From: a virus
IMG/VR virus record: IMGVR_UViG_3300007512_000248
Coordinates: 1 to 20,926 of that record
Length of the DNA: 20,926 bases
Strand: one strand, 5' to 3'
The notes beneath the pieces were generated by a model. The model was not told the origin of the DNA and made no database searches. It was given only the letters and a program-made list of their open reading frames with translations. Below, one piece after another: positions 2,056 through 20,884 of the stretch. The translations under genes and the position numbers were made by a program. Positions within the stretch are counted from its first letter, which is position 1. Each line of letters opens with the position of its first letter.

Positions 2056-4199
2056 TAGATACCCTGTCCTGTTGCCAGTTTAAGTTGGGCCTCTTTATTG
2101 AAGAGATCATGCTTGGTGCCAGCCCGCATCTGCTCCAGTCCCAGCTTGGCTTGTAGCTCTGTCACCTTCATGTCTCGGTCTGCTGCCATACCTGCCAGTG
2201 CAAGCTCACGATCCGACTGGATCTTCATCAACTCGATCTGGTTCTTCTCCTGAGCTACCTGCGCCTTCAACTGCTCAATCTGCGCCTGCATCTGAAGCTT
2301 CTCTTGCTCTGGGCTAACCTGTGGCTGTTCCTGAGCCGACTGCTGTTGCTGTGCCACCTCTTCATCAGAAGCCACTAACGCCACGGCATCCAACTGCATA
2401 CTCTGTACGGTTTTACGTACCAGTTCTGGGATCTTGATAATCCCAGCATACTGCGGGGCAATGCTCATCAACTGGATCAGGTTCTGCGCCTGTGTCTCTT
2501 TAGCCAGCAACGCACTCGATCCACGGGCATCTACGAAGTAATCACCCTTAATCTCCGGCTTCTCGTTGTTCTGCATATTCCAGTCATACAACCGAGTCAG
2601 GAAAGTGCGTGTGACATCATCATCAAAGTTCTTTACTGAACGTCTAGTCACTACGTTGGCGGAGTTCATCAGTAGACTCATCCCTGTAGCTGTTCTGGTG
2701 TACTGCCCCTGCTCACCCTGAGCAATTACGGGTAAGTTAGTCTCCTCATCAGCCAGTGATTTGGCCGTCTGCAGGATCGCCTGTAGCTCTCCCAAGTGGC
2801 TGTTGATCTCAAAACTGCCGAAGGCCTCATGGACACTTCGATTACGGTCAGTCATCTGCCACACCTTCTTCGGTGCCAGATTCCAGTCCCCATCAGCGGG
2901 TTTGATCACATGAGGGTTGACTACAATCTGTGGCCCCACTGAGAGACCAGCGTTATCCAGTGACATTCGCCATGCGCCATTGATCGCTCTCTGGGCATTA
3001 CGCATCAGGTAAGGGATACCAAACCCGAAGATCGAGCTGTCATCCTTCTCCCAACTGTAGACACTGTAGGGCCGTGCCTCACTCTCCATTGGATTGATTG
3101 CAGCCTTGATCACTCGGCCATCGACGAACCAAACGATCCCCTCCACCTCATCGAGTGCATCCTCGGAGCATTCACATCCTGCTGCACGCAAATCCTCTTT
3201 GTTGATCGGGCCGTGGTACTCCCAGACCTCATACCTTCCCTCTCGTCTGGCAGAGACCCCATTAATGGAGCGCAGATCGTTAATATGGGAGGCGGTGTTT
3301 TGGTAGAGGGGCTCCTCCTGTTCAATCACCTCACGGATCTGATCAACCAGAAAACCCTCTCGCTTGGCTAGTGCCCGGAGATCTTTCTTCCCCATCAGAT
3401 GACGTTGGAAGATAAATTCTGCATCCTCAAGTGCTGCCCCACTCATATCTGGGAAGAAGTTCCAGGGATCTACCCTCTCCACTGAGGGACGTATGTCTTC
3501 ACGCACCTCGATTACATGGATCTGGTTTCCGGCCCCATCATCCATCGGTCGCCAAGAGCGCTTGGTTCTCCCTACAACTACAGGCCCCTTGAGAATTCCC
3601 GTACCGAGACGCACCGCATCCTTGATCACTTCTCGGCACTTGATGTTGTAACGTGCCTCAGTAAGCTGGTCATCCATCTCGTCCTGCATCGCCCGGGAGC
3701 GCTCTTTGGCCACCTCCAGAATCCCACTGGCCATGTCCCGGTTCTGTACCGGCGCCCCCTCTGGGGTAAAGACGGGAGCACCATCCGGGGTGGTTGCCTG
3801 CTTCTGATCATTGAGTGACTCAGCCAGCTCCGGTACCGGGGTTGGGAGGATCTCCCAGTTACGGTCATCGGTTGGGAACAACATATCCGAAAGCCGTGCC
3901 TCGGCACTGTTGCACTTGGACCGGGTGATATTGACGTAGGCCTGTGACCCCTTCGCTGCCTGTATCGAGGACAGCGTGGCAGAGTCATACTTGCCGGAGA
4001 ACTGACGGATATCCTCCAGCCAACGGTTCTCAATCTCCCGGCGCTGCCCTACCTGCTCCTCAGCCAGATCCTGTAGTCGCCCACCAAAGGCCTGGAGACG
4101 CGCAGACATCTCTCGCTTGAAGGCCTCATGCGCCTCATGCATCCGCGCCTCCTCCTCAAGCAACTCAATCTCGGTGAGCTCTACTATTTGTTCACGCAT
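2055..4199 (-). CDS. Portal protein (P22-type, large)
   Basis: A 714-residue protein, in the size range of P22-type portals (about 725 residues). The dodecameric portal forms the DNA entry/exit vertex of the head and docks the terminase. The N-terminal ~60 residues are a charged helix. The core contains VERVDPWNFFPDMSGAALED, followed by FIFQRHLMGKKDLRALAKREGF, a hallmark of this portal family, then YSWEKDDSSIFGFGIPYLMR and a tail of about 100 residues that is Gln-rich and coiled-coil-like. The start has GGA nine bases upstream. Packaging-gene order (terminase, portal, scaffold, capsid) agrees. Oddly, it is separated from the large terminase by a plus-strand toxin-antitoxin pair, so leftward transcription must cross that module antisense. 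Confidence 0.87.
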   Translation of the reverse strand: MREQIVELTEIELLEEEARMHEAHEAFKREMSARLQAFGGRLQDLAEEQVGQRREIENRWLEDIRQFSGKYDSATLSSIQAAKGSQAYVNITRSKCNSAEARLSDMLFPTDDRNWEILPTPVPELAESLNDQKQATTPDGAPVFTPEGAPVQNRDMASGILEVAKERSRAMQDEMDDQLTEARYNIKCREVIKDAVRLGTGILKGPVVVGRTKRSWRPMDDGAGNQIHVIEVREDIRPSVERVDPWNFFPDMSGAALEDAEFIFQRHLMGKKDLRALAKREGFLVDQIREVIEQEEPLYQNTASHINDLRSINGVSARREGRYEVWEYHGPINKEDLRAAGCECSEDALDEVEGIVWFVDGRVIKAAINPMESEARPYSVYSWEKDDSSIFGFGIPYLMRNAQRAINGAWRMSLDNAGLSVGPQIVVNPHVIKPADGDWNLAPKKVWQMTDRNRSVHEAFGSFEINSHLGELQAILQTAKSLADEETNLPVIAQGEQGQYTRTATGMSLLMNSANVVTRRSVKNFDDDVTRTFLTRLYDWNMQNNEKPEIKGDYFVDARGSSALLAKETQAQNLIQLMSIAPQYAGIIKIPELVRKTVQSMQLDAVALVASDEEVAQQQQSAQEQPQVSPEQEKLQMQAQIEQLKAQVAQEKNQIELMKIQSDRELALAGMAADRDMKVTELQAKLGLEQMRAGTKHDLFNKEAQLKLATGQGI

Positions 4200-4231
4200 G
4201 ATTTATATCCAACAACTTGCATCCTATTTTA

Positions 4232-4268
4232 TTGATCTTGCACACCGTTTGGTGTATATTATGCGCAT
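4232..4268 (+). promoter_or_regulatory. Promoter and operator-like palindrome of the toxin-antitoxin pair
   Basis: A sigma70-like promoter reads TTGATC (4232-4237), 17-bp spacer, TATATT (4255-4260). The spacer contains the inverted repeat ACACC-GTTT-GGTGT (4242-4255), and an 8-bp palindrome ATGCGCAT follows at 4261-4268. An operator inside the spacer is what autorepression by a RelB/DinJ antitoxin or toxin-antitoxin complex would require. The promoter and repeats are seen directly; the autorepression is inferred from the family. Confidence 0.65.
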
Positions 4269-4298
4269 CCATTAAATACTGACTATTTGGAGATTCCT

Positions 4299-4556
4299 AT
4301 GTCAACCGTGCAAACCAGTCTGCGCCTAGATGAAAATCAGTTTCGTGAGGCCAAGGAGATCCTCTCCCAGCTCGGCATGAACTTTACGGAAGCCGTAAAT
4401 ATCTTTACCAATATGGTGGTCTTAAACAGAGGACTTCCATTTCATGTCAAGCTCCCCAACCAGGAGACCGAAAACACACTGCGCGAGATCCGTGGTGGTG
4501 ATGGAGTTGAAGAGATCACCCTCGATCAACTTCATCAAGAAGCAGACCAACTATGA
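4299..4556 (+). CDS. Type II antitoxin, RelB/DinJ family
   Basis: An 85-residue protein beginning MSTVQTSLRLDENQFREAKE, with an N-terminal ribbon-helix-helix DNA-binding region (residues about 1-50) and the family signature GLPFHVKLPNQET near residues 50-62. The Asp/Glu-rich C-terminus should wrap and neutralise the toxin. The start ATG at 4299 is preceded by TTGGAG with six bases between. Its TGA overlaps the toxin ATG (ATGA), the usual coupling of these pairs. It is oriented against the flanking phage packaging genes, so it behaves as an independently expressed cargo module. Confidence 0.85.
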   Translation: MSTVQTSLRLDENQFREAKEILSQLGMNFTEAVNIFTNMVVLNRGLPFHVKLPNQETENTLREIRGGDGVEEITLDQLHQEADQL

Positions 4557-4828
4557 GAAGGCTGTTCCGGCACAAACAGTTCAAGAAAGACTTTCTCAAA
4601 GTACGCTCTACAGACCAACAGACTGAAAAGCTATTTCTCTATATCGCTGCACTACTTGAGGAAAAGACCCTCCCCCCGGAATCCAGAGATCATCCATTAA
4701 CCGGAGAGTGGCGTGATTTCCGGGAATTTCATTTAGGGGGTGACCTCTTGCTCATCTACAAACTGGATGGGGACCGTATCACGCTTGCTCGAATCGGCTC
4801 CCATGCCCAACTCTTCAAAAAGATGTAA
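4553..4828 (+). CDS. yafQ: mRNA interferase toxin, YafQ type (RelE superfamily)
   Basis: A 91-residue basic protein. The C-terminal half contains DHPLTGEWRDFREFHLGGD, then LLLIYKLDGD and ARIGSHAQLF, which is the YafQ pattern. The residues matching the YafQ active site are all present: His47, His60, Asp64, His84 and Phe88. YafQ-type toxins cut mRNA on the ribosome and are held inactive by the DinJ-type antitoxin encoded just upstream. Nothing suggests inactivation. It ends 12 bp before the converging terminase gene, with no terminator between, so the transcripts should overlap. In a prophage the pair may stabilise the lysogen or act in phage defence; that role is inferred. Confidence 0.87.
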   Translation: MRRLFRHKQFKKDFLKVRSTDQQTEKLFLYIAALLEEKTLPPESRDHPLTGEWRDFREFHLGGDLLLIYKLDGDRITLARIGSHAQLFKKM

Positions 4829-4840
4829 CCACTGCAGTCA

Positions 4841-6256
4841 TTAGTAACCGACTACTGCATCCGCAACGGTATGTATCTCCAGCTCGGGTACTGGGCCCGC
4901 CTTGATCTCCTCACCAATCCCCATAAAGGCATACTGCAGTGCGTCATGACAGTGGCTGTACTGGTTCTTGTCAGCCTTGTCGGAGTATCTCTCCCCTGCC
5001 ACCATCATTCGTTTGAATCGATATCCGCCATTGAATCCCTTGCGCAGGGATCGACAGGATGGATCTAGTTTGAAAGAGGGTTCTCCATCACTCATCCGGT
5101 TAAGCCACTGCCGTACCGACTCCCATCGTGCCTGCGGCGCATTGGAGCTAGCCGGTTGGGCAATCAGACCAAAGGTGCGTAACTCATCAAACACCGTGCG
5201 CTCATCGGTATCGGCACGCTTCACCCCAGCCGGGTCACCCACAATGTTCCAGCCGCAATCCCTGTACTTGGTTTTGAGCATCGGTAGCAGCAGGGACTCG
5301 GTAAACTGTTTGATCCCCATATCCTCAGAGACAATCTCATCAAGTACGTTAACTCTCCCTCTAGGGGTCAGTTGTACAATGGCGGCTGCCGGGGTGAGGC
5401 CAAAATCCAGCCCAATATAGATCGGGATTCCAGGGATCACCTTGGTATCGCCTACGTGAAGGGTGTCATTGAACTGCGCATAGATCGGCTTGCCGTCCAT
5501 GTTGTCAGCGTAATCACCGAGCACATAGGCCTTGATCCAGTTATCCTGCTTGCCCGGTATCTGCCGCTCCCAATACTCATATCCGAGGGTATGGTTCTGC
5601 ACATTCTCTGCACTCGGGTTGGGTATATAGATCCCATCATCCCGACGAATCAGTGCCCCCGGCTGTTTGAAGAACCTCCACCCTTTCGGCAGCTCCTCCT
5701 CTGCCAACCGGTACCACCATGAATCCTGTGATGGCGGGTTGGTGTCCATAAAGATCCCTGACCACGAAGGGCCACCCCTCATCTTGGCGGGATAACGACC
5801 GACACGTCCGGTCAGGGCATCCAGAATATCCTTGGGCACCTCACGGGCCTCATTGATCCATGCCCCGGTTAGCTCTAGTGAGAGCAGCTTCTTTGCATCC
5901 TGTGGCCGATCTAACGCCAGAAACAGCACTTCTGCCTCAACCCCACTCCCATCACCAATATCGGGAATAGAGATCTTCGCCACAATCGGTGGCTGCCAGT
6001 TGATCTTGGCAAACGGAATCCACTCCTCAAAGGTCTTGATGGTCGTGGTCTTCAACTCTGGATAGGAGTTTCTGATGATCGCCCATCGAGAACTTCGAAC
6101 ATTGTTATGCGCCTGCTGAGTTAGCGACCGTTGCAGAATCTCAATCACACAAGCCACCGACTTCCCCGAACCCACCGGCCCCATCAACCCCCGGATGAAA
6201 TCATCAGACGAGTGAAAGCGAGCCGGAGTCGCCTCCGCCTGATAAGATATATTCAT
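4841..6256 (-). CDS. Terminase large subunit
   Basis: A 471-residue packaging motor. The N-terminal ATPase has the Walker A motif GPVGSGKS (residues about 26-33) and a downstream acidic strand VLFLALDRPQDAKKLLSLEL with ELTGAWINEAREVP, matching the adenine/Walker B region of terminases. The C-terminal RNase H-like nuclease has IPIYIGLDFGLTPAAAIVQL (first catalytic Asp), VLDEIVSEDMG and GDPAGVKRADTDE, then KNQYSHCHDALQYAFM near the end with the last acidic residue. It cuts concatemeric DNA and drives it into the head through the portal. The start codon has GGA eight bases upstream. Length is normal for this family. Confidence 0.92.
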   Translation of the reverse strand: MNISYQAEATPARFHSSDDFIRGLMGPVGSGKSVACVIEILQRSLTQQAHNNVRSSRWAIIRNSYPELKTTTIKTFEEWIPFAKINWQPPIVAKISIPDIGDGSGVEAEVLFLALDRPQDAKKLLSLELTGAWINEAREVPKDILDALTGRVGRYPAKMRGGPSWSGIFMDTNPPSQDSWWYRLAEEELPKGWRFFKQPGALIRRDDGIYIPNPSAENVQNHTLGYEYWERQIPGKQDNWIKAYVLGDYADNMDGKPIYAQFNDTLHVGDTKVIPGIPIYIGLDFGLTPAAAIVQLTPRGRVNVLDEIVSEDMGIKQFTESLLLPMLKTKYRDCGWNIVGDPAGVKRADTDERTVFDELRTFGLIAQPASSNAPQARWESVRQWLNRMSDGEPSFKLDPSCRSLRKGFNGGYRFKRMMVAGERYSDKADKNQYSHCHDALQYAFMGIGEEIKAGPVPELEIHTVADAVVGY

Positions 6257-6280
6257 ACTGGTTCCTACAAGGAGGAGAAA

Positions 6281-6556
6281 ATGGCGAAAAAATTATTGGC
6301 GATAATCGTGTTGGTCGGTCTCAGCTTCTCAGTATCGGCAGTGCAATGGCCTATCTTCAAAGAGGATCCTGACTCGGTTTGTTACACTACCGATGGAAAC
6401 CTACAAACAGATTGTCCAAACATCAAAAAAGGAGCATTGCTTTATACCAGAGCAATCTCCTCGATTTGTGATCTTACTCAACCAATCTTTATGGCACATT
6501 CACCAATGGTGTATTGTATTTACCGCGGCAAGCCACGGCAGCAATTAAGCAAATAG
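6281..6556 (+). CDS. Small secreted four-cysteine protein of unknown function (candidate moron)
   Basis: A 91-residue protein with a textbook signal peptide, MAKKLLAIIVLVGLSFSVSA, and a likely cleavage before VQW. The mature part (about 71 residues) has four cysteines (CYTTDG, TDCPNI, SICDLT, VYCIYRG), suggesting two disulfides in the periplasm. The start is set by a very strong AAGGAGG site seven bases upstream; the open frame extends further upstream into the terminase gene but without a better start. It lies on the plus strand between the two terminase genes, divergent from the large subunit by 24 bp. Orientation and export suggest a lysogen-expressed accessory gene acting on the host envelope. 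I do not recognise the family. A weak -10-like TATATT lies at 6248-6253. Confidence 0.72.
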   Translation: MAKKLLAIIVLVGLSFSVSAVQWPIFKEDPDSVCYTTDGNLQTDCPNIKKGALLYTRAISSICDLTQPIFMAHSPMVYCIYRGKPRQQLSK

Positions 6557-6674
6557 CCGCTACCTGTAGGCCCACTAAAATTTCCTGAGCCAAACACTAT
6601 ATATTGACGTACACGGGGGCAGTGAGAGTACGCCGCTATCCCGGGGGTCAACTTTCTATCAACCACCCGGCCAA

Positions 6675-7328
6675 CTAGGGATCCTTTTTTTCTCCCCTTC
6701 CAGACTCATCAATCACCTCAACTTCACCAGAATAGCCGTTCACCATCACTGGTAGAGAGGGTGCCGGAGGTATTTTACCTTCCCGACTTCCCTCATTATT
6801 CAATAGGTTATTGACCTCTTGTGCCTCATTTGTGCCGATTACCCCTATTGGAGCCCCCTGTAGGTTCAGATTGAAGACAATTCCAGAGCCAGTCTGCTGC
6901 TGCTTCTCCACAAACACCCCCTTAGCCTTCCCCAGTAGCTCCCACGCCTTCAAACGGATACCGGCCTGGCTGTCCGTGGTCTCATTGAAGATCCCCTTGA
7001 GAATCGCCTCCCGGCTGATATCGAATGACTTTTCGATACGTTCTTCCTCTGCCGCGAGAGCCGTCCGGATTTTCTCTTTTGCCAAGAGCTGGGTACCTAT
7101 GCTTTTTGCGCTCGACTCAGAATAGCCAGCCTCTCTAGCTGCTCTGGCTCCAACGTGATGCCGTGCATAAGAGCGAACAAAGGCCATTTGCTTGTCGCTG
7201 ACCCGGTCTCGTCCCTTGTTGTGACCACCGACCATCAAGCCAGAGGTGTTCCTCTCATGATCCCCACCGAAACCACCAGCAAGGGCAGCCTCAGTCCTGG
7301 CTTGTTCTTTATCTGTTTGTCGTTCCAT
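6675..7328 (-). CDS. Terminase small subunit (Terminase_2-like)
   Basis: A 217-residue protein. The region VSDKQMAFVRSYARHHVGAR followed by AAREAGYSESSAKSIGTQLLAKEKIRTAL is the helix-turn-helix DNA-recognition domain of the Terminase_2 family (residues about 43-95). A central oligomerisation part follows (KAWELLGKAKGVFVEK) and a Pro/Glu-rich tail. It recognises the packaging start site and recruits the large subunit. The two subunits are separated by the plus-strand secreted-protein gene and a 118-bp stretch. The ATG at 7328 is the longest form but has only a weak GAG upstream; an internal ATG about 31 codons in is an alternative start. Confidence 0.85.
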   Translation of the reverse strand: MERQTDKEQARTEAALAGGFGGDHERNTSGLMVGGHNKGRDRVSDKQMAFVRSYARHHVGARAAREAGYSESSAKSIGTQLLAKEKIRTALAAEEERIEKSFDISREAILKGIFNETTDSQAGIRLKAWELLGKAKGVFVEKQQQTGSGIVFNLNLQGAPIGVIGTNEAQEVNNLLNNEGSREGKIPPAPSLPVMVNGYSGEVEVIDESGRGEKKDP

Positions 7329-7451
7329 TCTGTACTCTGGGCTGATTGCTCAGCGCGGCCTTAGTAATGGTTATGAATAAATCGCTCCACACGTCACCAC
7401 GGCTGTTGCTCTACAAGTTAGCGATTGGGGTTCCCGGTGGGTGGAGCAGAA

Positions 7452-7486
7452 ACAAAAACGCCCTGAACTCATTTGTTCAAGGCGCA
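7452..7486 (-). terminator. Rho-independent terminator of the leftward early operon
   Basis: On the minus strand a roughly 10-bp stem (GCCTTGAAC pairing with GTTCAGGGC, one mismatch, loop AAATGA) is followed by GTTTTTG. It lies 84 bp past the stop of the 132-aa gene and upstream of the small terminase gene, so it would separate early/replication from late transcription. The rest of 7329-7567 holds no convincing gene. Confidence 0.65.
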
Positions 7487-7567
7487 AACATCCGTGGGGA
7501 TAATAAGATCATACTTTTCGTTAGATGTCAATCAGATATGAAATATACTTAATGCGCAATATAATGA

Positions 7568-7966
7568 TCAATACCCTAAGTTTTTACTCAGATGTGATGC
7601 TATCTGGTCAGCATATCCATAAAGGATCTGTAGCATTCTACGAATCTCTCTACGACTTCGGATAGGTGTACGCTCCATATGGCTGTCGAGATTAGGCGGT
7701 GGAGTAATGAAGATATTCCATGCAATCATAATTGCATCCTCAGATACCTCATCCCCAAACCGCCTGTTAAGTTCGTTGATCGCTCTGAACTTTCCATAGT
7801 TATCCAGGCAGTAATAGGCTGCAGCAATATCGTAAAGATATCCTGGGAGCCCTGAGAGTGCAGCAGCAATATCACTATGCTCCAGTTTTTCACCAGTAGC
7901 AGGAGAGCATCCATCCAATGAGATTGCCCCAGCAGTTAACCTGGAGAGCATTTCAACACTACTCAC
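7568..7966 (-). CDS. Unknown 132-aa protein at the end of the replication operon
   Basis: A largely helical 132-residue protein (for example YLYDIAAAYYCLDNYGKFRA and a basic stretch RTPIRSRREIRRMLQILYGY near the C-terminus). It starts at GTG 7966, overlapping the preceding nuclease gene by 8 bp, with AGAAGG just upstream; ATG at 7951 is an alternative. I recognise no family. It is the last gene before a terminator and the late packaging genes, the place where lambda-like phages keep a Q-type late antiterminator, and the basic C-terminal region would fit a nucleic-acid binder. That role is only a contextual guess. Confidence 0.6.
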   Translation of the reverse strand: MSSVEMLSRLTAGAISLDGCSPATGEKLEHSDIAAALSGLPGYLYDIAAAYYCLDNYGKFRAINELNRRFGDEVSEDAIMIAWNIFITPPPNLDSHMERTPIRSRREIRRMLQILYGYADQIASHLSKNLGY

Positions 7967-8342
7967 AAACCTTCTCCCGGTAGAGCATCACAAATCCGTT
8001 GAAGGAGAGCTCGGCCGTATAGGTAAGTTCCTTCCAATCAGATACCAGATCATCATTCACCCATTCCAGCGGCACCACTACTCTCCAATGTTGCCGATCC
8101 AGACGGTACATCAAGACAGGGATCAAACCACTACTAGCCTGATCACAACACTGCCGCCACCATGAACCAATAGATCTCTCCTTGGCTCGCTTTACCTCCA
8201 GAGCAACTCCATCCAGCAGCACATCATGCCCGCCATTGGCCCACTGCTGCAGGTTACGAGAGCAATCAAACCCCTCATCACGAAGCATCCGTGCAACCTC
8301 CTGCTCCCCTGCTCTCCCCTTGATCCGTTGTGATCTCCCCAT
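7959..8342 (-). CDS. PD-(D/E)XK nuclease, Holliday junction resolvase-like
   Basis: A 127-residue protein whose N-terminal half matches a small archaeal/phage-type resolvase: GRAGEQEVARMLRDEGFDCS (first catalytic Glu), then GGHDVLLDGVALEVKRAKE with the Asp and the Glu-x-Lys of the PD-(D/E)XK active site. Such enzymes cut branched DNA during replication and recombination or before packaging. ATG 8342 overlaps the polymerase TAA stop by one base (TAATG), giving coupled translation; the frame extends to a TTG at 8357 that is less likely. C-terminal residues 70-127 contain several Trp and are not recognised. It could alternatively be a more general structure-specific endonuclease. Confidence 0.75.
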   Translation of the reverse strand: MGRSQRIKGRAGEQEVARMLRDEGFDCSRNLQQWANGGHDVLLDGVALEVKRAKERSIGSWWRQCCDQASSGLIPVLMYRLDRQHWRVVVPLEWVNDDLVSDWKELTYTAELSFNGFVMLYREKVCE

Positions 8343-11300
8343 TACTTGGCAGCCCAACTAGAGCCAATTGATGCGTCGACCAACTTATTGGTGTCAGCCC
8401 CGGGGAATATCTGTAAGAACCCCTGAGTCATAGCGTCCTCAACAATCAATGCAACATTCTCTGCAGCAGCATCCTCCACCTCAACCACAATCTCATCATG
8501 CACAACTGCAAGGATCTTGGACGGGTATGAGCGCAGCATCTCCTCAAGGATTGCCAGTGCTGCATAAATTACATCGGCAGCAGCCCCTTGGACCGGGTAG
8601 TTGTAGCAGACCGAAGGCGCAGGATTCTTCCCAACATCCACCCGGCGGGCACCTGCAGTGATCAAATACCCCTTCTCCCGACCAAAACGATACTGCTCCT
8701 TTCGCCACTGATTCAGCGTTGGGTACTTCTTCTCCCATGAATCAATATAGGTATCAGCCTCAGACTGGCTCACCTTGAGTCGCTTTGCCAACAGTGCAGC
8801 ACCCATTCCATACTGTTGGCCAAAAGTAACCACCTTGGCTTGAGCACGTTGCCGTTTGGTTACTTTCTCCAATGACACCTTAAACATCACCGCAGCGGTT
8901 GCCTGGTGCATATCCTCACCATTGCTGAACATCTCTTTCAGAACCCTCTCATCAGCAAGCTCAGCTGCCGCACGCACCTCAACCTGTGAGTAGTCACAGA
9001 TCACCATCTTCCTGCCAGCAGGTGCAACAAATAGTCCTCGAAAGGCGTTACTGTTGGGCATGTTTTGGAGATTGGGCCCTGATGAACTCATCCGCCCCGT
9101 TCGCGCACGACTGATTGCAAACGACCCATAGATTCGCCCATTGATAACCTTACGTGCCAACCCCTCACCAAAGGTCTTGAGAATCGTCCCCCGCTTTTGT
9201 CGTAACAGGAATACAGCAAAGATCCGCTGGTACTGTGCAGGGATCACTCTCTTATCAAACAACTCCCGGAGAGCATCACCACCCGTTGAGAGTGCCCCAC
9301 TCTTGGTCCGTGGCCATCTTCGTAGCACAGGAACCGGCATCACCTGACGAACCCATCCAGCAATCTGTTTCGGAGAGTTCCAGTTCTTTACAGCAGGAAC
9401 ACGTCTCTCCAGAAAACTGGTTGCCAATACATGCCCACGTTCCAACTTATGAATCATCCGGCGATGAGCCAGTAGATCCAGCTGCATTCCGGAGCGCTCC
9501 ATCTCAATGACCGGTCGTGTTGCATTACGGAGTAGCTCATAACCACCCCACACACCCAGTTCCTCCATCTGCGTATTCAAGATATTCCAGAGCAGCCAGG
9601 CAACCTCCGCATCCTTCAGCGCATACTCAAGCTGGCCTCTACTCAACTCACCGTGCCAATTAGACTTCTGATACTGCTTGTCTAGCCTCACATCCAACAG
9701 TGCAAGAGAGGCAACATCAAGACCGATAGTGGCACCAGAGATAGCTGCCCATGCCATCATCCCATCCTCACACATCACATCGCACCCAGCTTCCTGCATC
9801 CAGCGCATCTCAAACGATGCATTCCAGACCACAAAGTGGCCGCCCTCCATCACATCCGCTATTGCAGAGAGACCTCCCACACAATCCAGGTCCACAATGA
9901 AACCATCCCCATCACGCCAGAACTGGGCAAGGCGCACCCGGTTCACCTCTGGACTATCAAGGGATCGCAAACCGACCGTCTCAAAATCCATCCCCACAAC
10001 GCCACCCACACAAATGTTGCGGATCAGCTCCTTCGCCTCTGAGATATCAGTAACAACCAGAATTGACGTGGCATCCTCCGGGGAGTCCTCAAGAGCCAGA
10101 TTTCCAGAAATGTTACCTGTAACTGTTACCCCACCCCTGTTTGTACTCTCTATAGGGTAAACAGTAGTAGTAACAACATCCCTGTTCCTCTCTATATTGT
10201 TTGTAATAGAAGATTTAGGGGTAACAGGTAACAAACCAGTAGTTGTTCCACTATTTACAACAACTTGCGCTGTTACCTCTTCTGTTACCCCATCCGTTAC
10301 CCCACCACTAGAGGTAACCGAAGCGTGGGCAACCACGTTACCTGTAACCGTTACCCCATCCTCTTTTTCTAAAACTTTTGGCTTCCAACCAGCGCTTACC
10401 TTCTTTTTTACCGGGTGGCGCAGCTTGGTTTTCTCCCAACCCATCTTCGCAAGCGTCTGGGCGACTACAATATGCTGCACTCTTGTTACCCTATTGGTGT
10501 CCATCGTGAAGCGATCCATCCAGAAATCAGCGGGGAAAAACTTGTCCAGCGGCTCTGGACGCTGTCGCCAACCAACATTTTCAATCCGATCACTACCATC
10601 TATGGTCTCTGGAATAGGCTCATGGGTGATGTACATCTTCACCTCCTCAGCCATCAAGTCCTCGGCGTAACGCTCATCCTGCTCCTGTTGGGCTATCTGC
10701 AGGATGGTCTTATCCTCAATCCACCACTTGTCTCCCTGCTTATAGCGCACCACAGCCTCTGCCCATAACTGATCCCGATCCCGCTCCAGTGCCGTCAGAT
10801 CAATATCCCGTTCGACAGTGACTGGCCAGAAGCGACGACCACCAGAAGAGTCCTTCAGGTAACCGGTTCCGGTAGGGTTAAAGGTTCCAGCCATAGCGCA
10901 GCGACGAGGAAACTCCTGAACCGTGCGTCCATAAGGGGGGCGAAATTTGTCATTGCGACAAGAGATAAACTCCTTGATATTCCCAACCTCCGCCTTAGAC
11001 ATCGCCTCCAGCTCAGAGATCTCGACAATCCAGTGCCCCAATAACTCCTGCTTTGCATCCTTGTGGCCAATATGACTCAACCCATCCTTGAACCACTTAT
11101 CATTAACAGCCAGTGTCGAGAGCATTGATGACTTCTTGCGCCCCTGGGTACCCTCCAACACCAGAATCGTGTCGCACTTCACCCCAGGATTAAGCCCTCT
11201 TGCTGCCGCACCAATGAGCCACTTGGAACCAACCGCAGTGAGGTACTCCTCTGGCCCCTCTGCATAACAGTAACTCTTCAGCCAATTATCGATCCGTGGC

Positions 11301-12454
11301 ACCCCATCCCAATCAATCCCCTCCAGATAGTTGACCAGATCATCGTATGGGTTCTTGAAAGCCACAGAGATCACCACAGAACGTATCTGCTTCTCACTGC
11401 AGTTGAGTCCCTGCTGGTTCAGCCAGATCGTCAGCTCCGTATCATCTGTATCTCGCCAGATTCTCGGATACTCCTCACCAGCAGCATCCCATGGCATCGG
11501 TGCCATCACATCTACCATTGAGCTGAACAGGTTGAACTTAATCTTCTTCTTTAGCTCCGGTGCGTGCAGCAGTGGCACTGCAATATTGTGAGAGTTCTTC
11601 AGTGGGGTTGGGTTTTTACCATTGGTGTAGTGCCAACGATCCCGCCAATCACTCCAGCGGTCCTCTAGATCCTCCATTGTGGTGATTGGCATCTCAGCCT
11701 GAATCATCCCGCCTAATGTCTTGGGGTCTCCCCCAGCATTTAGCCAGTCACTCACATCCCCATGCTCTTTCAGCCCCGGGAACTCCAGTACGCGAATAGA
11801 GCGAACGACTGGCAACAGACTCTTAACAATCTCCGTCGCATGTTTTCTCCCCACAAGGTCATTATCTGGCAACACCACAACATTAAGACCCTTGAACTCG
11901 GCAGTGTAATGATCCTTCCACTTACCATTGCCCGCACCATCAAAATTACAGGTTGCTGTCAGCCCCAACCCCACCAGCCGATCAACATCCTTCTCTCCTT
12001 CGCAGATAAACACCACCCCTTTGTCTACCCTATCCCCCCAGGAGAACTGGTGGAGCGCAGACAATCGGTATAGCGGCTTGCGGTCGATAAACCCAATCCC
12101 CCCCTTCCAACCATTCTTGTATTTCTCCCCCACGACCCCACAACGAAAACTCTTCTTCCCATCAACAGAGACACTACGCCGTTTGGTGAAGGCGTAACTG
12201 CCATCTCCGTACTCGTAGGTGTAGTCCATTGGTGCCGGTTTAGGCAGTAGCCCGCGCTGAATCAGCTCCTTCTGCACATCCTTGAAATCACACCCAGCGT
12301 GACAATGAAAAATGACATCCCTCTGCTTTCCCGCAGAGATTGAAAGAGAGGCCGTTTTGTCATCATGCGCCGGACATCTGCAGATCCACCCCTCCCCGGA
12401 TACTCTTGCGTCTCCCAGTGCCTGGGCAATTTTCTCGACATCAGTTACACCCAT
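8342..12454 (-). CDS. Multidomain replication protein: zinc finger-Toprim primase, VirE-type helicase, 3'-5' exonuclease and family A DNA polymerase
   Basis: A 1370-residue single chain. From the N-terminus: a CHC2-like zinc finger (CRCPAHDD, then HCHAGC; Cys25, Cys27, His30, Cys51, Cys55); a Toprim domain with VVFICEGEKDVDRLVGLG (Glu152) and VVVLPDND; a VirE/SF3-type helicase with Walker A EGTQGRKKSS (from 434), acidic Walker B region IVEISELEAMSK and sensor AGTFNPTGTGYL; a low-complexity linker (about 690-800) rich in Val-Thr; a DnaQ-like proofreading exonuclease with DFET (Asp823), NASFE and YALKDAE; and a PolA-type polymerase with motif A DYSQVEVR (Asp1154), motif B RQRAQAKVVTFGQQYGMG and motif C VVHDE (Asp1320). 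All catalytic motifs look intact. The ATG at 12454 is preceded by GGAGGGG at ideal spacing; upstream GTG/ATG are weaker. It could prime, unwind and copy phage DNA by itself. Confidence 0.92.
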   Translation of the reverse strand: MGVTDVEKIAQALGDARVSGEGWICRCPAHDDKTASLSISAGKQRDVIFHCHAGCDFKDVQKELIQRGLLPKPAPMDYTYEYGDGSYAFTKRRSVSVDGKKSFRCGVVGEKYKNGWKGGIGFIDRKPLYRLSALHQFSWGDRVDKGVVFICEGEKDVDRLVGLGLTATCNFDGAGNGKWKDHYTAEFKGLNVVVLPDNDLVGRKHATEIVKSLLPVVRSIRVLEFPGLKEHGDVSDWLNAGGDPKTLGGMIQAEMPITTMEDLEDRWSDWRDRWHYTNGKNPTPLKNSHNIAVPLLHAPELKKKIKFNLFSSMVDVMAPMPWDAAGEEYPRIWRDTDDTELTIWLNQQGLNCSEKQIRSVVISVAFKNPYDDLVNYLEGIDWDGVPRIDNWLKSYCYAEGPEEYLTAVGSKWLIGAAARGLNPGVKCDTILVLEGTQGRKKSSMLSTLAVNDKWFKDGLSHIGHKDAKQELLGHWIVEISELEAMSKAEVGNIKEFISCRNDKFRPPYGRTVQEFPRRCAMAGTFNPTGTGYLKDSSGGRRFWPVTVERDIDLTALERDRDQLWAEAVVRYKQGDKWWIEDKTILQIAQQEQDERYAEDLMAEEVKMYITHEPIPETIDGSDRIENVGWRQRPEPLDKFFPADFWMDRFTMDTNRVTRVQHIVVAQTLAKMGWEKTKLRHPVKKKVSAGWKPKVLEKEDGVTVTGNVVAHASVTSSGGVTDGVTEEVTAQVVVNSGTTTGLLPVTPKSSITNNIERNRDVVTTTVYPIESTNRGGVTVTGNISGNLALEDSPEDATSILVVTDISEAKELIRNICVGGVVGMDFETVGLRSLDSPEVNRVRLAQFWRDGDGFIVDLDCVGGLSAIADVMEGGHFVVWNASFEMRWMQEAGCDVMCEDGMMAWAAISGATIGLDVASLALLDVRLDKQYQKSNWHGELSRGQLEYALKDAEVAWLLWNILNTQMEELGVWGGYELLRNATRPVIEMERSGMQLDLLAHRRMIHKLERGHVLATSFLERRVPAVKNWNSPKQIAGWVRQVMPVPVLRRWPRTKSGALSTGGDALRELFDKRVIPAQYQRIFAVFLLRQKRGTILKTFGEGLARKVINGRIYGSFAISRARTGRMSSSGPNLQNMPNSNAFRGLFVAPAGRKMVICDYSQVEVRAAAELADERVLKEMFSNGEDMHQATAAVMFKVSLEKVTKRQRAQAKVVTFGQQYGMGAALLAKRLKVSQSEADTYIDSWEKKYPTLNQWRKEQYRFGREKGYLITAGARRVDVGKNPAPSVCYNYPVQGAAADVIYAALAILEEMLRSYPSKILAVVHDEIVVEVEDAAAENVALIVEDAMTQGFLQIFPGADTNKLVDASIGSSWAAK
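10112..10358. repeat. Iteron-like GTTACC/GGTAAC cluster, candidate replication origin inside the replication gene
   Basis: Ten copies of the hexamer GTTACC, on either strand, lie in 247 bp (starts 10112, 10125, 10220, 10227, 10272, 10284, 10296, 10313, 10337, 10350), with an eleventh at 10485. Three are spaced exactly 12 bp apart (10272, 10284, 10296). Two composite blocks, 10112-10133 and 10337-10358, are identical at 21 of 22 positions. The hexamer is used in different reading frames, encoding Val-Thr, Gly-Asn or Leu-Pro, so the repetition is held at DNA level and not only at protein level. Lambda places its origin iterons in the linker-coding part of its O gene, and this is the same arrangement. 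Origin function is inferred. Confidence 0.6.
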
Positions 12455-12548
12455 TGCCAACCCCTCCATCACTATTGGAGACCAAGCAATCTATTGACGG
12501 CAAGTTCTGGTAACAATCATCCATATTCATCAGCTTCTCCTTGAAGGG

Positions 12549-15045: not shown

Positions 15046-16464
15046 ATGCAAAACCAAAAGGATCTGGCCATTAAGGCCGGTATGGGGGGAGCGTACACCC
15101 TAGAGAAGGCGGAAGAGCCTCCAAGACTGACCCTTCAACCAAAACAGGTCACCACCAGCAAGTTCCTGGCCTCCAGAAAGCGTGCCTGTGATCTAAGCGA
15201 AATGGGTTTTGGCAAAACCGCTGCAGCATGGGATGCCGCAGATCGCACCAAGGCAAAAAGAGTATTGGTCATCTGCCCCGCCATCGTCTGCACCCATTGG
15301 AAACGGGAGCATGGTCGTGTCAGTACAGTAGAGCGCACCATTCAGATCGTCACCTCCTCCAGCGACAGGATTGAGGGAGATGTAACCATCATCTCCTACA
15401 ACCTGGTAGGAAAGAAGAAGATCAAAAAGCAGCTGATGAACCAGCAGTTTGATGTGGCAATCTTCGACGAGGCGCACTATCTCAAGAACTCAAACGCCAT
15501 CCGCACCGTGGCCATTCTGGGCCCACACTGCGATGGCAGCGGAATTATCTCAAGAGCAACCCACAACTGGTACCTCACCGGCACCCCTATGCCAAATCAC
15601 ATCGGGGAACTCTACCCCCTGCTTCGTGCCAACTGGCCAGAACGCTTTGAGGATATTGGGCTCGACTACCTCTCTTTCATCAAGCGCTATGCGTATCGCA
15701 AGCAGACCAAGTTTGGTACACAAATCTATGGTAGCCAAAACATGGATGAGCTCAATGAGCGGCGCAGTGGCACCTTCATCCGCTTTACGAAGAAGGATCT
15801 GGAAAAGAGCCTTCCTCCCAAACGAATCACCACCGAGGTAATGGACGCATCTACTGCATCCAGTGAACTCTCGATACTGGAACACTCACCAGAATACGAT
15901 GAACTCCGATCTGTTCTGAACGAGACCAGAGACCGCGACCTGGATGAGGTGGTCATCCGTAAAAACCGTGAACTCTCCACACTCAGAAGACTCACCGGCA
16001 TCGTAAAGGCACCCATAGCCGCCAGATACATTAGAGACACCCTCAGTGGCGGCACTCAAAAACTGGTGGTCTTTTATCATCATAAAGAGGTTGGCGAAAT
16101 CCTCCGGGACCAACTGCAAGGAATCCCTCTTGTGCGAATCCTTGGCAGCCAGACCATCCATGAACGCTCAGACGCAGTAGATCGCTTTCAGGACGACCCA
16201 TCCATAAGGGTGGCGCTTATATCACTGGGGGCTGGAAACACCGGCATCACCCTTACCACATCGTCTGACGTGGTGTTTGTCGAGAGTGACTGGTCCCCCG
16301 CAGTCAATTTGCAGGCCGCTAACCGGGTACATCGGGTCGGCCAAACCAACCACGTCTGGATCCGCTTCCTCGCCCTTGCCGGAAGTCTCGATCACGCCAT
16401 CCAACGCACTCTGCAGCGCAAAACCGCTGTGCTAGACCAATTAGAGGTATCCAACAATGTTTAA
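15046..16464 (+). CDS. SNF2-family DNA-dependent ATPase/helicase
   Basis: A 472-residue two-lobed SF2 enzyme. Lobe 1 shows LSEMGFGKTAAA (Walker A, Lys57), LVICPAIVCTHWKRE (Ia), FDEAHYLKN (motif II, Asp141-Glu-Ala-His) and YLTGTPMPNHIGELYPLL (motif III). Lobe 2 shows LVVFYHHKEVGEILRDQL, LISLGAGNTGITLT and QAANRVHRVGQT (motif VI, Gln423). Order and spacing are those of compact SNF2/SMARCAL1-like proteins of phages. It is likely to translocate on duplex DNA and to remodel forks or assist strand annealing. AGGAGG lies six bases before the ATG. It overlaps the Fe-S nuclease gene by 8 bp, suggesting the pair acts together. Confidence 0.9.
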   Translation: MQNQKDLAIKAGMGGAYTLEKAEEPPRLTLQPKQVTTSKFLASRKRACDLSEMGFGKTAAAWDAADRTKAKRVLVICPAIVCTHWKREHGRVSTVERTIQIVTSSSDRIEGDVTIISYNLVGKKKIKKQLMNQQFDVAIFDEAHYLKNSNAIRTVAILGPHCDGSGIISRATHNWYLTGTPMPNHIGELYPLLRANWPERFEDIGLDYLSFIKRYAYRKQTKFGTQIYGSQNMDELNERRSGTFIRFTKKDLEKSLPPKRITTEVMDASTASSELSILEHSPEYDELRSVLNETRDRDLDEVVIRKNRELSTLRRLTGIVKAPIAARYIRDTLSGGTQKLVVFYHHKEVGEILRDQLQGIPLVRILGSQTIHERSDAVDRFQDDPSIRVALISLGAGNTGITLTTSSDVVFVESDWSPAVNLQAANRVHRVGQTNHVWIRFLALAGSLDHAIQRTLQRKTAVLDQLEVSNNV

Positions 16465-17512
16465 AAATATCCCAGAACTGATCTCCGATGAGATCGCCCC
16501 AACCATCTTCAAAACCCAGGATGGAGAGATCTATACCGGGCGTAATACCCACGGCAGTGCATCAGAACTCAACCAGTGCTCCAGAATGCTCTGCTTTAAG
16601 AAAAGTGGCGCGGAAATGGACCCAGGCACGGTAGAGAGTTGGGGCTATACAGAGCGCGGCAATGTTGCTGAGGAGTGGTTTCAGGGTAACCTGAAATCTG
16701 CAGTCCAGCGTCAAGGGATGGATCTTCTGTATGCAGGAGATGCCCAAGTGACACTGGTCGATAAGGATCTCAGCGCAACACCGGATGGCCTGATCACAGG
16801 TGCTCCCAGAGATATCCTGATGGACTTTGGTATTCCTAATATCCAATCTGATTGCATAGCACTGGAAATCAAGTCTCGTGATCCCCGCACCGTCTCCAGA
16901 AATCCAAAGAGTGATCACATTATCCAGAACCAGCTCCAGCAGGTGCTCTTCAACAAGACCACCGACCACTCCCCACGCTTTGGGCTTCTGGTCTACATCA
17001 ATGCTAGTGACTATTCGGATATTGATTCCCACGTCATCCCCTACTCAACCACCATTGAGACAGCCATGCGCAAACGTGCTACAGAGATCCTCAGCAGTGA
17101 CCCGATGGATCTGATGCCAGAGGGCAAGGTGGATGGCACTTGCAAGTGGTGCAACTACAAGCAGCGTTGTGGACAGGCAATTGTTGATGAGTTTCCCACT
17201 CAGAAGAATCCGCCAATCCCAGATGATGTGGAAGAGCAGATCAGTGAGTTGGCCATGCGTCACAGTGATCTCAAGAACCGACTTAAACAACTCAAAACCG
17301 AGAAATCAACTATCGACGAGGAGCTGAAGCTCGTATTGCGCAGCAATGATGTACAGCAGTACCAGCTCCCCGAGTACAAAATTTCATACGTCCCCGTAGC
17401 AGGAAGGTCGACCCTTGATACGGAGTCTCTGAAACAGGTGGTAGTCAATTTGGACGACTACTACCAAACCTCCCCTGGCAGTGACAGGTTAACTGTCCGC
17501 CAGACTAACTAA
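16457..17512 (+). CDS. Fe-S cluster PD-(D/E)XK exonuclease (Cas4/AddB-like)
   Basis: A 351-residue nuclease. The active site is visible as SATPDGLI (Asp110), ALEIKSRD (Glu137-x-Lys139) and HIIQNQLQQVLF (the conserved Gln of motif III). Four cysteines fit an iron-sulphur cluster of the Cas4/AddB/RecB-like type: Cys41 in ELNQCSRM before the core, then Cys229, Cys232 and Cys238 with C-x2-C-x5-C spacing after it. A coiled coil (about 255-300) and a short extra C-terminal domain follow. It probably resects DNA ends for phage recombination together with the SNF2 enzyme encoded just upstream (8-bp overlap). GAGG precedes the ATG. There are no Cas1/Cas2 genes or repeats, so a CRISPR role is not indicated. 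Confidence 0.82.
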   Translation: MFKNIPELISDEIAPTIFKTQDGEIYTGRNTHGSASELNQCSRMLCFKKSGAEMDPGTVESWGYTERGNVAEEWFQGNLKSAVQRQGMDLLYAGDAQVTLVDKDLSATPDGLITGAPRDILMDFGIPNIQSDCIALEIKSRDPRTVSRNPKSDHIIQNQLQQVLFNKTTDHSPRFGLLVYINASDYSDIDSHVIPYSTTIETAMRKRATEILSSDPMDLMPEGKVDGTCKWCNYKQRCGQAIVDEFPTQKNPPIPDDVEEQISELAMRHSDLKNRLKQLKTEKSTIDEELKLVLRSNDVQQYQLPEYKISYVPVAGRSTLDTESLKQVVVNLDDYYQTSPGSDRLTVRQTN

Positions 17513-17536
17513 CTCCTAAATATTAAGGTGATTATC

Positions 17537-18133
17537 ATGCAGTTAACGAATGTAAATTCAAATGTAATGTCCGCAATCTCAGCCTTCACCGAGGATGCGG
17601 GTTCTTCCAACATCAACTTTCTCAAGTTCAACAAATCGGGGAACTTTATCTACGGCATGGAAGACCATGTACTGGATGAGAGCGAGCAGTTTACTGTCGA
17701 GTCTCTCGGGGACTTCAGTCATGGATTTATTGCCTGGCAGGATGGCAAGCCAGTCGGTGAGGAGATGACCGCGATCGATTCAGGTCGTGTCATCAACCAG
17801 TCCGGCCTACCAGATCATCCGGGTAGTGATGGATGGAAGGCACAGAAAGCTCTGCGCCTGACCAACATCCACAGTGGTGAGGTGTTCCAGTTCAAGAGCA
17901 CATCCTATGGTGGTCGTAATGCTGTCTCCAACCTGATGAAGGAGATCATCAACCGCTCCAAGCGTGGAGAGGATGACCTGATCCCCGTATTTCATCTGGA
18001 GTCCACCAGCTATAAACATGCGCAATACGGCAAGATTTTTAACCCCGTATTTGCCATTGATAGCTGGCGTGCAGACGAGCCCCTGAGCGCACCGGAACAG
18101 CCCTCAGAGCCAATTGATGTAACAGTCAATTAA
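17537..18133 (+). CDS. Conserved phage protein of the recombination operon, candidate ssDNA-binding protein
   Basis: A 198-residue protein, acidic at the C-terminus. Segments such as NFLKFNKSGNFIYGMEDHVL, GFIAWQDGKPVGEEM, LRLTNIHSGEVFQFKSTSYG and VFHLESTSYKHAQYGKIFNP, with regularly spaced aromatics and glycines, suggest a beta-rich OB-like fold. The short Pro/Glu tail (SAPEQPSEPIDVTVN) recalls SSB tails. It follows a nuclease and an SNF2 enzyme, where phages often keep an SSB or annealing protein. The SSB idea is inference; I do not firmly recognise the family. The start at 17537 is chosen because AAGGTGAT lies just upstream; GTG 17528 would destroy that spacing. Confidence 0.72.
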   Translation: MQLTNVNSNVMSAISAFTEDAGSSNINFLKFNKSGNFIYGMEDHVLDESEQFTVESLGDFSHGFIAWQDGKPVGEEMTAIDSGRVINQSGLPDHPGSDGWKAQKALRLTNIHSGEVFQFKSTSYGGRNAVSNLMKEIINRSKRGEDDLIPVFHLESTSYKHAQYGKIFNPVFAIDSWRADEPLSAPEQPSEPIDVTVN

Positions 18134-18232: not shown

Positions 18233-18289
18233 ATGGAACATACGATTAACAAAAACAGTTGCTCCTCATTTCACATGGAGGTGATCTGA
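18233..18289 (+). CDS. Possible 18-aa leader peptide
   Basis: A short frame, MEHTINKNSCSSFHMEVI, starts at ATG 18233 with GGAG eight bases upstream and ends in TGA sharing one base with the next ATG (TGATG). This could couple translation of the TSCPD-like protein. A hairpin TGGTCC...GGACCA (18176-18205) lies just upstream. It may equally be chance, since the next gene has a perfect ribosome site of its own. Confidence 0.25.
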   Translation: MEHTINKNSCSSFHMEVI

Positions 18290-18846
18290 TGGCAATAAAG
18301 ATAGACAAGCCTATTGTCAGCGCCTCAGTGGTAGAAAAAAGCACAGCAAAGCAGCCGCCAGCTATGCTTAAACGCCCCTCTGAGCTGCACGGCAAGACCT
18401 ACAAATTACGTGATCACTATAGAGAGATCAGCCTGTACGCCACCATTAACAACCATGAAGGCAAGCCGGTAGAACTGTTTGCCAACTCAAAACACAGCGA
18501 GTGTGATCAGTGGGTGCATCTCTCCACACTCCTCATTAGCCATATCTTTCAATCCAATATACCACTCTCTCCCAAGGATGTGGTGCGATTGATGAAGGAG
18601 GTTCGATCCGAGTACCCCTACCCCAGCAGAGAGCTGGGCAGACAGGTCAACTCGATGGTGCAGGAGCTCGGTTTCATCCTTGAACAACATATCGATGAAA
18701 TGAGTAACCCAGCAGAGACCATACAACCTCTTACCAATAAGAAACCGGTAACTGGTGAGGAGTGCCCAAAGTGCCATGAAATGACTCTCATCAAGATGGA
18801 TGGTTGCATGACCTGCACCTCCTGCGGCGAAAGCAAATGCGGGTAG
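18289..18846 (+). CDS. Free-standing TSCPD-domain protein with C-terminal zinc/thiol motif, like the tail of NrdJ
   Basis: A 185-residue protein. RPSELHGKTYKLRDHYREIS followed by LYATINNHEGKPVELFANS and ECDQWVHLSTLLISHIFQSN matches the TSCPD domain found at the C-terminus of B12-dependent (class II) ribonucleotide reductases. The end, EECPKCHEMTLIKMDGCMTC then TSCGESKCG, matches the cysteine-rich reductase tail (GC..C..CG.SKCG). No reductase catalytic domain is encoded nearby. It might act on the host reductase, shuttle reducing equivalents, or simply use the fold for nucleotide or DNA binding. Start ATG 18289 has the perfect GGAGGTGAT site. Domain recognition is from memory of the family; the function is open. 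Confidence 0.72.
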   Translation: MAIKIDKPIVSASVVEKSTAKQPPAMLKRPSELHGKTYKLRDHYREISLYATINNHEGKPVELFANSKHSECDQWVHLSTLLISHIFQSNIPLSPKDVVRLMKEVRSEYPYPSRELGRQVNSMVQELGFILEQHIDEMSNPAETIQPLTNKKPVTGEECPKCHEMTLIKMDGCMTCTSCGESKCG

Positions 18847-20612: not shown

Positions 20613-20621
20613 ATATCAATC

Positions 20622-20750
20622 CGCGCCCGGAAGGGACGGCTCTGACGCCCGGAAGGTTTTTTGGGGCAATTCTACATTCACCTTAACTTTTTGAAGCATA
20701 TAGACCCGTTGGGGCATTTTTGGGGCACGCCCGGAAGGTTTTTTGAGGCA
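20622..20750. repeat. tRNA-3'-end copies and TTGGGGCA repeats at the prophage end (candidate att core and arm sites)
   Basis: The sequence CGCCCGGAAGG, part of the tRNA acceptor/T-stem region, occurs three times before the tRNA: 20624-20634 (as the 13-mer CGCGCCCGGAAGG from 20622, identical to tRNA positions 20811-20823), 20646-20656 and 20728-20738. A second motif, TTGGGGCA, occurs at 20661, 20709 and 20720, with a one-base variant at 20743. Repeats of this kind beside an integrase are expected for Int core and arm binding. The copies are seen directly; their use by the integrase is inferred. Confidence 0.6.
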
Positions 20751-20756
20751 CGCATG

Positions 20757-20781
20757 AAAAAAGGAGCTAAAAAGCTCCTTT
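20757..20781 (-). terminator. Rho-independent terminator downstream of tRNA-Arg
   Basis: A perfect 8-bp stem, AAGGAGCT-AAAA-AGCTCCTT, is followed on the minus strand by six T's. It lies 27-51 bp past the tRNA CCA end and would end tRNA transcription; on the plus strand the T-run is weaker, so it may act less well for the integrase. Confidence 0.75.
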
Positions 20782-20807
20782 AATCAACAAGTTACAACTT
20801 TGGTATA

Positions 20808-20884
20808 TGGCGCGCCCGGAAGGATTCGAACCTCCGACACCTTAGTTCGTAGCCAAGTACTCTATCCAGCTGAGCTACGGGCGC
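20808..20884 (-). tRNA. tRNA-Arg (anticodon ACG), prophage attachment site
   Basis: On the minus strand a complete 77-nt tRNA folds from GCGCCCGTAGCTCAGCTGG to an encoded CCA. The acceptor stem GCGCCCG/CGGGCGC is perfect, the T-arm is GGAGG-TTCGAAT-CC(T)TCC, and the anticodon loop CTACGAA gives ACG. The sequence is very like enterobacterial tRNA-Arg(ACG). The anticodon is read by A34-to-inosine editing in bacteria. The integrase gene faces its 3' end, so integration most likely uses that end and leaves the tRNA intact. Confidence 0.96.

Follow-up and report, generated by a model that had tools for sequence, protein, structure and literature searches.

A phage gene encoding primase, helicase, exonuclease and family A polymerase in one frame, with a candidate iteron origin in its linker DNA

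Primase, helicase, 3'-5' exonuclease and family A polymerase are joined in one polypeptide in the apicoplast protein PREX (PMC8113025). GP55 of the lactococcal phage 1706 is a four-in-one replicase with helicase, primase, exonuclease and polymerase activities (PMC12205980), and the TV-Pol-D5 helicase fusions (Sputnik V13, mobile elements) combine a PolA-related polymerase with an SF3-class helicase (PMC2579912). Origins, in turn, can lie in or next to the gene of their initiator. The origin of phage lambda is located inside the initiator gene O (PMC7466680). SaPI origins consist of iterons directly downstream of the rep gene, which are recognised by the C-terminal domain of Rep (PMC7581432). 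PICI origins comprise two iteron sets flanking an AT-rich region and supported plasmid replication (PMC6092414).

Here we describe a locus in a viral contig of 20.9 kb (the whole stretch analysed is referred to as the window) in which one frame encodes all four modules and the DNA of the linker carries an iteron array. We read it, with a probability of roughly 0.7, as the central replication unit of a temperate tailed phage: a self-loading initiator, primase and helicase in one, that continues across its own origin into its polymerase.

The fused gene, its modules and its neighbours

The frame 8342–12472 on the minus strand is open throughout. GTG 12472 is a possible alternative start (1376 residues), but ATG 12454 is the likelier one, because a GGAGG motif is located 8 nt upstream. 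Residue numbers count from GTG 12472. The gene and its parts are as follows:

8342–12454 (−): fused primase-helicase-exonuclease-polymerase gene, 1370 residues from ATG 12454 (open frame, Shine-Dalgarno position, domains)
12287–12409 (−): CHC2-type Zn-ribbon, residues 22–62, with C33, H36, C57 and C61 (Pfam PF01807, 2e-4, just below the Pfam cut-off)
11723–12025 (−): Toprim primase catalytic part, residues 150–250, with E158, D203 and D205 (primase/helicase PHROG matches, motifs common to the relatives)
10673–11626 (−): VapE-type SF3 helicase ATPase, residues 283–600 (PF05272, AF2, Foldseek)
10373–10657 (−): C-terminal winged-helix-like domain of the helicase, candidate origin-binding, residues 606–700 (AF2, Foldseek)
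10070–10366 (−): linker, residues 703–801, about 100 residues, predicted disordered
9566–10057 (−): DEDD 3'-5' exonuclease, residues 806–969 (PF01612, DNA_pol_A_exo1, 4e-11; Exo I–III motifs)
8351–9385 (−): family A DNA polymerase, residues 1030–1374 (PF00476, DNA_pol_A, 3e-70; motifs A, B and C)

The domains were placed by means of Pfam, PHROG and NCBIfam, and none of the three contained a single family spanning the entire fused protein. The Pfam VapE-like domain (PF05272) covers residues 383–599 (6e-72), and the polymerase part also matches solved PolI homologues. To compare the motifs we aligned eight proteins, the one from the window and seven relatives (six fused and two split forms in all). 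The Zn ligands are invariant in this alignment. All eight proteins likewise conserve the Toprim EGEKD/DND motif (Glu, Asp-x-Asp), the Walker A Lys, the Walker B Glu, the sensor-1 Asn and the paired Arg of the helicase, as well as Exo I–III and the polymerase motifs A, B and C. Walker A reads GTQGRKKS and lacks the second Gly that is usual there; in Exo II (NASFE), Glu replaces the Asp of Klenow. Since both departures are found in 8/8 proteins, we consider them family traits and not damage, and we rejected decay of these motifs as an explanation. The FE of Exo II is also found in other phage PolAs.

The original prediction of an uninterrupted 1370-codon frame with four enzyme modules in one chain agrees with the frame being open throughout from ATG 12454 and with the domain matches and shared motifs. 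Its further claim that all catalytic residues are intact holds for the conserved motifs, but not for the family-wide changes in Walker A and Exo II.

An AF2 model of the helicase module had a pLDDT of 92.8. Its best PDB match in a Foldseek search was 7pds, the self-loading initiator SaPI PriRep1 with dsDNA (TM 0.77, E 1.6e-30), and the alignment spans the whole helicase module. It includes the last ~95 helicase residues, which are winged-helix-like in the model (secondary structure H-H-β-β). By this modelled fold and its alignment to the dsDNA-bound chain, the domain is a candidate origin binder. The helicase half terminates where stand-alone VapE proteins terminate. By its fold the helicase module resembles the SaPI origin initiator PriRep1 and would not serve solely as a fork helicase. 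For this reason the description of the chain as a complete leading-strand machine, a minimal replisome, does not stand as originally worded; moreover, this phage has further genes of its own for an SSB-like protein, for an exonuclease, for an SNF2 helicase and for a resolvase-like nuclease. The last of these overlaps the fused gene:

7959–8357 (−): PDDEXK / Holliday-junction-resolvase-like nuclease, overlapping the replicase gene downstream (PF24608, 1e-8; phrog_244, 3e-20)

Judged by these matches, the nuclease is probably a replication accessory. The SNF2 helicase, a RecE/Cas4-like exonuclease and the SSB-like gene are located at 15046–18133 (+) and are transcribed divergently from the fused replicase; the same kit is found in Corynebacterium and Bacteroides phages. 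A small separate protein encoded at 18259–18846 (+) resembles the TSCPD part at the C terminus of ribonucleotide reductase (phrog_23565, 8e-18; the Pfam TSCPD match is just under the cut-off). A RelB/DinJ-like antitoxin and YafQ-like toxin pair (4287–4828 (+); PF04221, 1e-8; PF15738, 3e-27) lies between the genes for terminase and portal and is encoded on the opposite strand. At 20620–20884 a tRNA-Arg(acg) adjoins the tyrosine integrase gene. The motif at its 3' end, GCCCGGAAGG, occurs in three more copies between integrase and tRNA; these copies form the second repeat cluster of the window and are candidate attachment/Int sites.

Recurrence of the fusion and split forms

Among relatives drawn from IMG/VR and GTDB contigs, the same one-frame architecture was present in L174 (3300008952), L203 (3300008253), L392 (3300028844) and L393 (3300025128) as well as in L357, an uncultured Methylophaga contig (CALEHW010000055.1). 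These five contigs represent four further lineages (L174/L357, L203, L392 and L393) with 30–50% identity. Homologues are not always encoded as two genes, an outcome that would have spoken against the original prediction: the window and the five other contigs are fused, compared with two split ones, L093 and L175. The latter have a separate gene for each of the two halves, in unchanged order and abutting. In both (L093:4836-4839 and L175:4836-4839) the polymerase ATG is located 2 nt past the helicase stop, in a different frame and with little or no Shine-Dalgarno sequence. This arrangement suggests translational coupling in the split form.

All eight proteins form one clade in the helicase tree (support 100/100) and in the polymerase tree (99/98), and therefore both halves have travelled together. 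The split pair is the sister of the fused L203 (100/100 for the helicase, 94/94 for the polymerase). The clade may go back to an old fusion followed by one later fission, or else to two fusions.

A tblastn search of 50,697 phage and 72,556 plasmid records yielded no match covering 80% of the fused query. In genome contigs, a scan based on a two-row alignment gave no hit; a wider alignment recovered the Methylophaga contig. Five other genomes of the family of this contig gave polymerase-type or partial matches only, and 368 other genomes of its class gave no further fused copy at E 1e-60. A Toprim-VapE-PolA fusion was not reported in the literature we searched; the coverage of this search was partial, so that the absence is weak evidence.

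Iterons in the linker DNA and alternative explanations

The linker had been predicted to be flexible, with a length of ~110 residues. It is indeed predicted to be disordered (pLDDT 23–33 in a second model, residues 262–1376) and has nearly this length, but an iteron array in its DNA had been overlooked:

10220–10355 (no strand): iteron set 1, GGTAAC/GTTACC copies in both orientations (repeat analysis)
10150–10215 (no strand): AT-richer spacer between the iteron sets, candidate melting site (60–68% AT vs 48% for the gene)
10112–10130 (no strand): iteron set 2, GGTAACAGTTACAGGTAAC on the coding strand (repeat analysis)

No other repeat cluster in the window is as strong as the one in the linker DNA (score 84 vs a median of 6), and GTAAC/GTTAC occurs 13 times in 300 bp compared with 0.5 expected copies. 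The GGTAAC/GTTACC iterons are found on both strands and in two of the three codon phases. The third GGTAAC phase is absent because it would place TAA in frame, which the open frame forbids. The array (10112–10355) sits inside the initiator coding sequence and directly 3' of the helicase sequence, and its two sets flank AT-richer DNA. This is the layout of SaPI/PICI-type origins. The GC skew of the window showed no clear origin inflection.

Every fused lineage has the highest-scoring repeat cluster of its locus in the linker DNA; the iteron sequence differs by lineage (GGTAAC, GGTTGAGCCAC, GGTAAGGTTTTGG, CCTCACCC and CCTCCCAC). As a null we used 500 synonymous-codon permutations encoding the same peptide. 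The observed score exceeded the largest permuted score in 6/6 fused genes: 84 vs 24±7 for the window, 195 vs 39±12 for L174, 269 vs 45±13 for L357, 308 vs 48±13 for L203, 171 vs 13±6 for L392 and 91 vs 21±8 for L393. The window spacer shows a modest AT enrichment; that of L203 is stronger, with two iteron sets flanking a stretch of 87% AT. In the split relative L175 the repeats straddle the helicase/polymerase gene junction; in L093 the repeat signal is weak.

We also located the top repeat cluster in VapE loci without a fused polymerase, sampled from among the matches listed. The top repeat cluster was located near the VapE stop (−350 to +650 nt) in 64 out of 112 loci (57%) vs 11% expected; this figure is descriptive, because redundancy among the loci was removed only in part. 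The loci share ancestry and form a sample and not a census. The same test gave 6% at the VapE start, 10% at the polymerase stop and 7% at the polymerase start. The stand-alone Toprim-VapE gene L013:4881-7298 ends in a tail of ~160 residues that consists of translated TGGACCA-type iterons. At the sequence level it shows an intermediate state with an origin-like array inside the gene end and no fusion.

Helicase-primase and polymerase might nevertheless act separately, owing to a polyprotein or an internal start, as reported for the processing of apicoplast PREX. Maturation of the PREX primase by proteolysis is described in work cited in PMC8113025. An internal ATG is present in L174 at position 4845, behind AAGG, and the split relatives L093 and L175 do encode two proteins. 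Hence the polymerase could be separated in vivo by internal initiation or proteolysis. In the window gene, however, we found no start with a convincing Shine-Dalgarno sequence between helicase and exonuclease, and the open frame is kept in five divergent lineages despite TAA or TGA in one iteron phase. We consider separate action unlikely.

Iterons can also serve as operators or as copy-control/incompatibility sites. If the array were such a site, bound by the helicase or a repressor, replication would not start there. The two sets, the AT-richer spacer and the position directly 3' of the initiator, however, match tested SaPI/PICI origins (PMC7581432, PMC6092414), which makes such a role rather improbable.

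The fusion could also be real and the repeats a low-complexity spacer that arose by slippage and was kept for flexibility, with the origin elsewhere. The predicted disorder of the linker fits this explanation, as do the VEPQVEPQVEP-like repeats of L174, which resemble a tandem duplication. Slippage does not readily account for copies that occur on both strands and in two codon phases, for repeats in excess of the synonymous permutations, or for a position that is conserved while the repeat sequences differ. Nor does it explain why repeats occupy the same position, without translation or with translation of a part, behind VapE genes that lack a polymerase. We therefore give it little credence.

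Finally, two genes joined by an assembly or frameshift artefact can practically be dismissed: the window is a metagenomic fragment, and L001 (IMGVR_UViG_3300007509_000085), a contig of a nearly identical phage (99.5% identity across 6.8 kb, window positions 2345–9147), terminates within the polymerase and does not itself cross the linker, but neither a frameshift nor a misassembly was found in the linker, and the same architecture with unrelated linkers is present on five further, independently assembled contigs including the Methylophaga MAG.

Proposed mechanism and comparison with known systems

Based on the reading as a self-loading initiator fused across its origin to its polymerase, and by analogy with SaPI Rep and PICI origins, we propose the following mechanism. 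The first ~700 residues would form a SaPI PriRep-like initiator composed of the Zn/Toprim primase, a hexameric SF3 (VapE) helicase and an iteron-binding winged helix. The iteron origin would be located directly 3' of the initiator sequence, an arrangement known from SaPIs and related elements. The frame, however, runs through this origin, which would thus be translated as a disordered tether of ~100 residues, followed by a complete proofreading PolA. The protein, presumably working as an unprocessed chain, would bind the iterons within its own gene and assemble or load as hexamers. The AT-rich spacer would be melted and the DNA unwound. In the next step the Toprim domain would prime, and the tethered polymerase, already at hand, would extend the primer. 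Ring formation would bring up to six polymerases.

On balance, we lean towards going one step further and regarding the locus as a one-gene replicon. In that case a single frame would encode origin recognition, melting, priming, unwinding, synthesis and proofreading, the origin would be the coding DNA of the protein's own tether, and the initiator would be handed its polymerase there. Linker peptide and cis-acting origin would then be one sequence under double constraint. Initiation and elongation would be covalently joined in one phage protein of ~1370 residues whose gene carries the origin too. This would provide a compact, testable model for the handover from an SF3 initiator to a polymerase and possibly a self-contained replicon for in vitro use. 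It would also explain the long disordered tails behind some VapE helicases, since such a tail can be a translated origin. The rule that iterons sit at the VapE stop would predict origins in many uncharacterised phages and elements.

SaPI/PICI PriRep1 (7pds) shares with the window protein the VapE-type SF3 helicase, and its C-terminal dsDNA-binding domain has a candidate counterpart in the modelled winged helix. In both, the helicase sequence is followed directly on its 3' side by iterons that surround AT-rich DNA. In SaPI/PICI elements, however, the chain contains no DNA polymerase, and the origin lies downstream of the gene and is not translated within a larger frame. Those elements are satellites, whereas the window belongs to a phage with capsid, portal and terminase genes.

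PREX, known from Plasmodium and Toxoplasma, has the same four modules in the same order in one chain. It is encoded by a nuclear gene, targeted to the organelle and processed, and its helicase is of the Twinkle/T7 gp4 kind, in contrast to the VapE/SF3 helicase of the window. We know of no origin inside the PREX gene. GP55 differs by its order, with the helicase first, and by an archaeo-eukaryotic primase and a family B polymerase in place of Zn/Toprim and family A; an iteron linker is not described for it. In the TV-Pol-D5 fusions the polymerase is N-terminal, and both exonuclease and Toprim primase are missing.

The lambda O gene, like the fused gene, carries iterons and an AT-rich stretch in the middle of an initiator coding sequence, but the O initiator is small and lacks helicase, primase and polymerase modules. 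The fused protein has no Pfam or PHROG match pointing to homology with O, and the sequences are unrelated. Corynebacterium, Bacteroides and Clostridia phages (L003, L004, L005 and L011) share the exonuclease/SSB/PolA/VapE/nuclease/SNF2 kit. In these, PolA and the primase-helicase are separate genes with PolA upstream of VapE, and the VapE partner does not match the Zn/Toprim primase.

PREX and GP55 are precedents for four activities in a single chain; the set Toprim-VapE-Exo-PolA was not found described, nor was an iteron origin serving as replicase tether found in the literature. Against this background, the window protein is best read as an initiator of the PriRep type that is joined to its polymerase, with the join spanning its origin.
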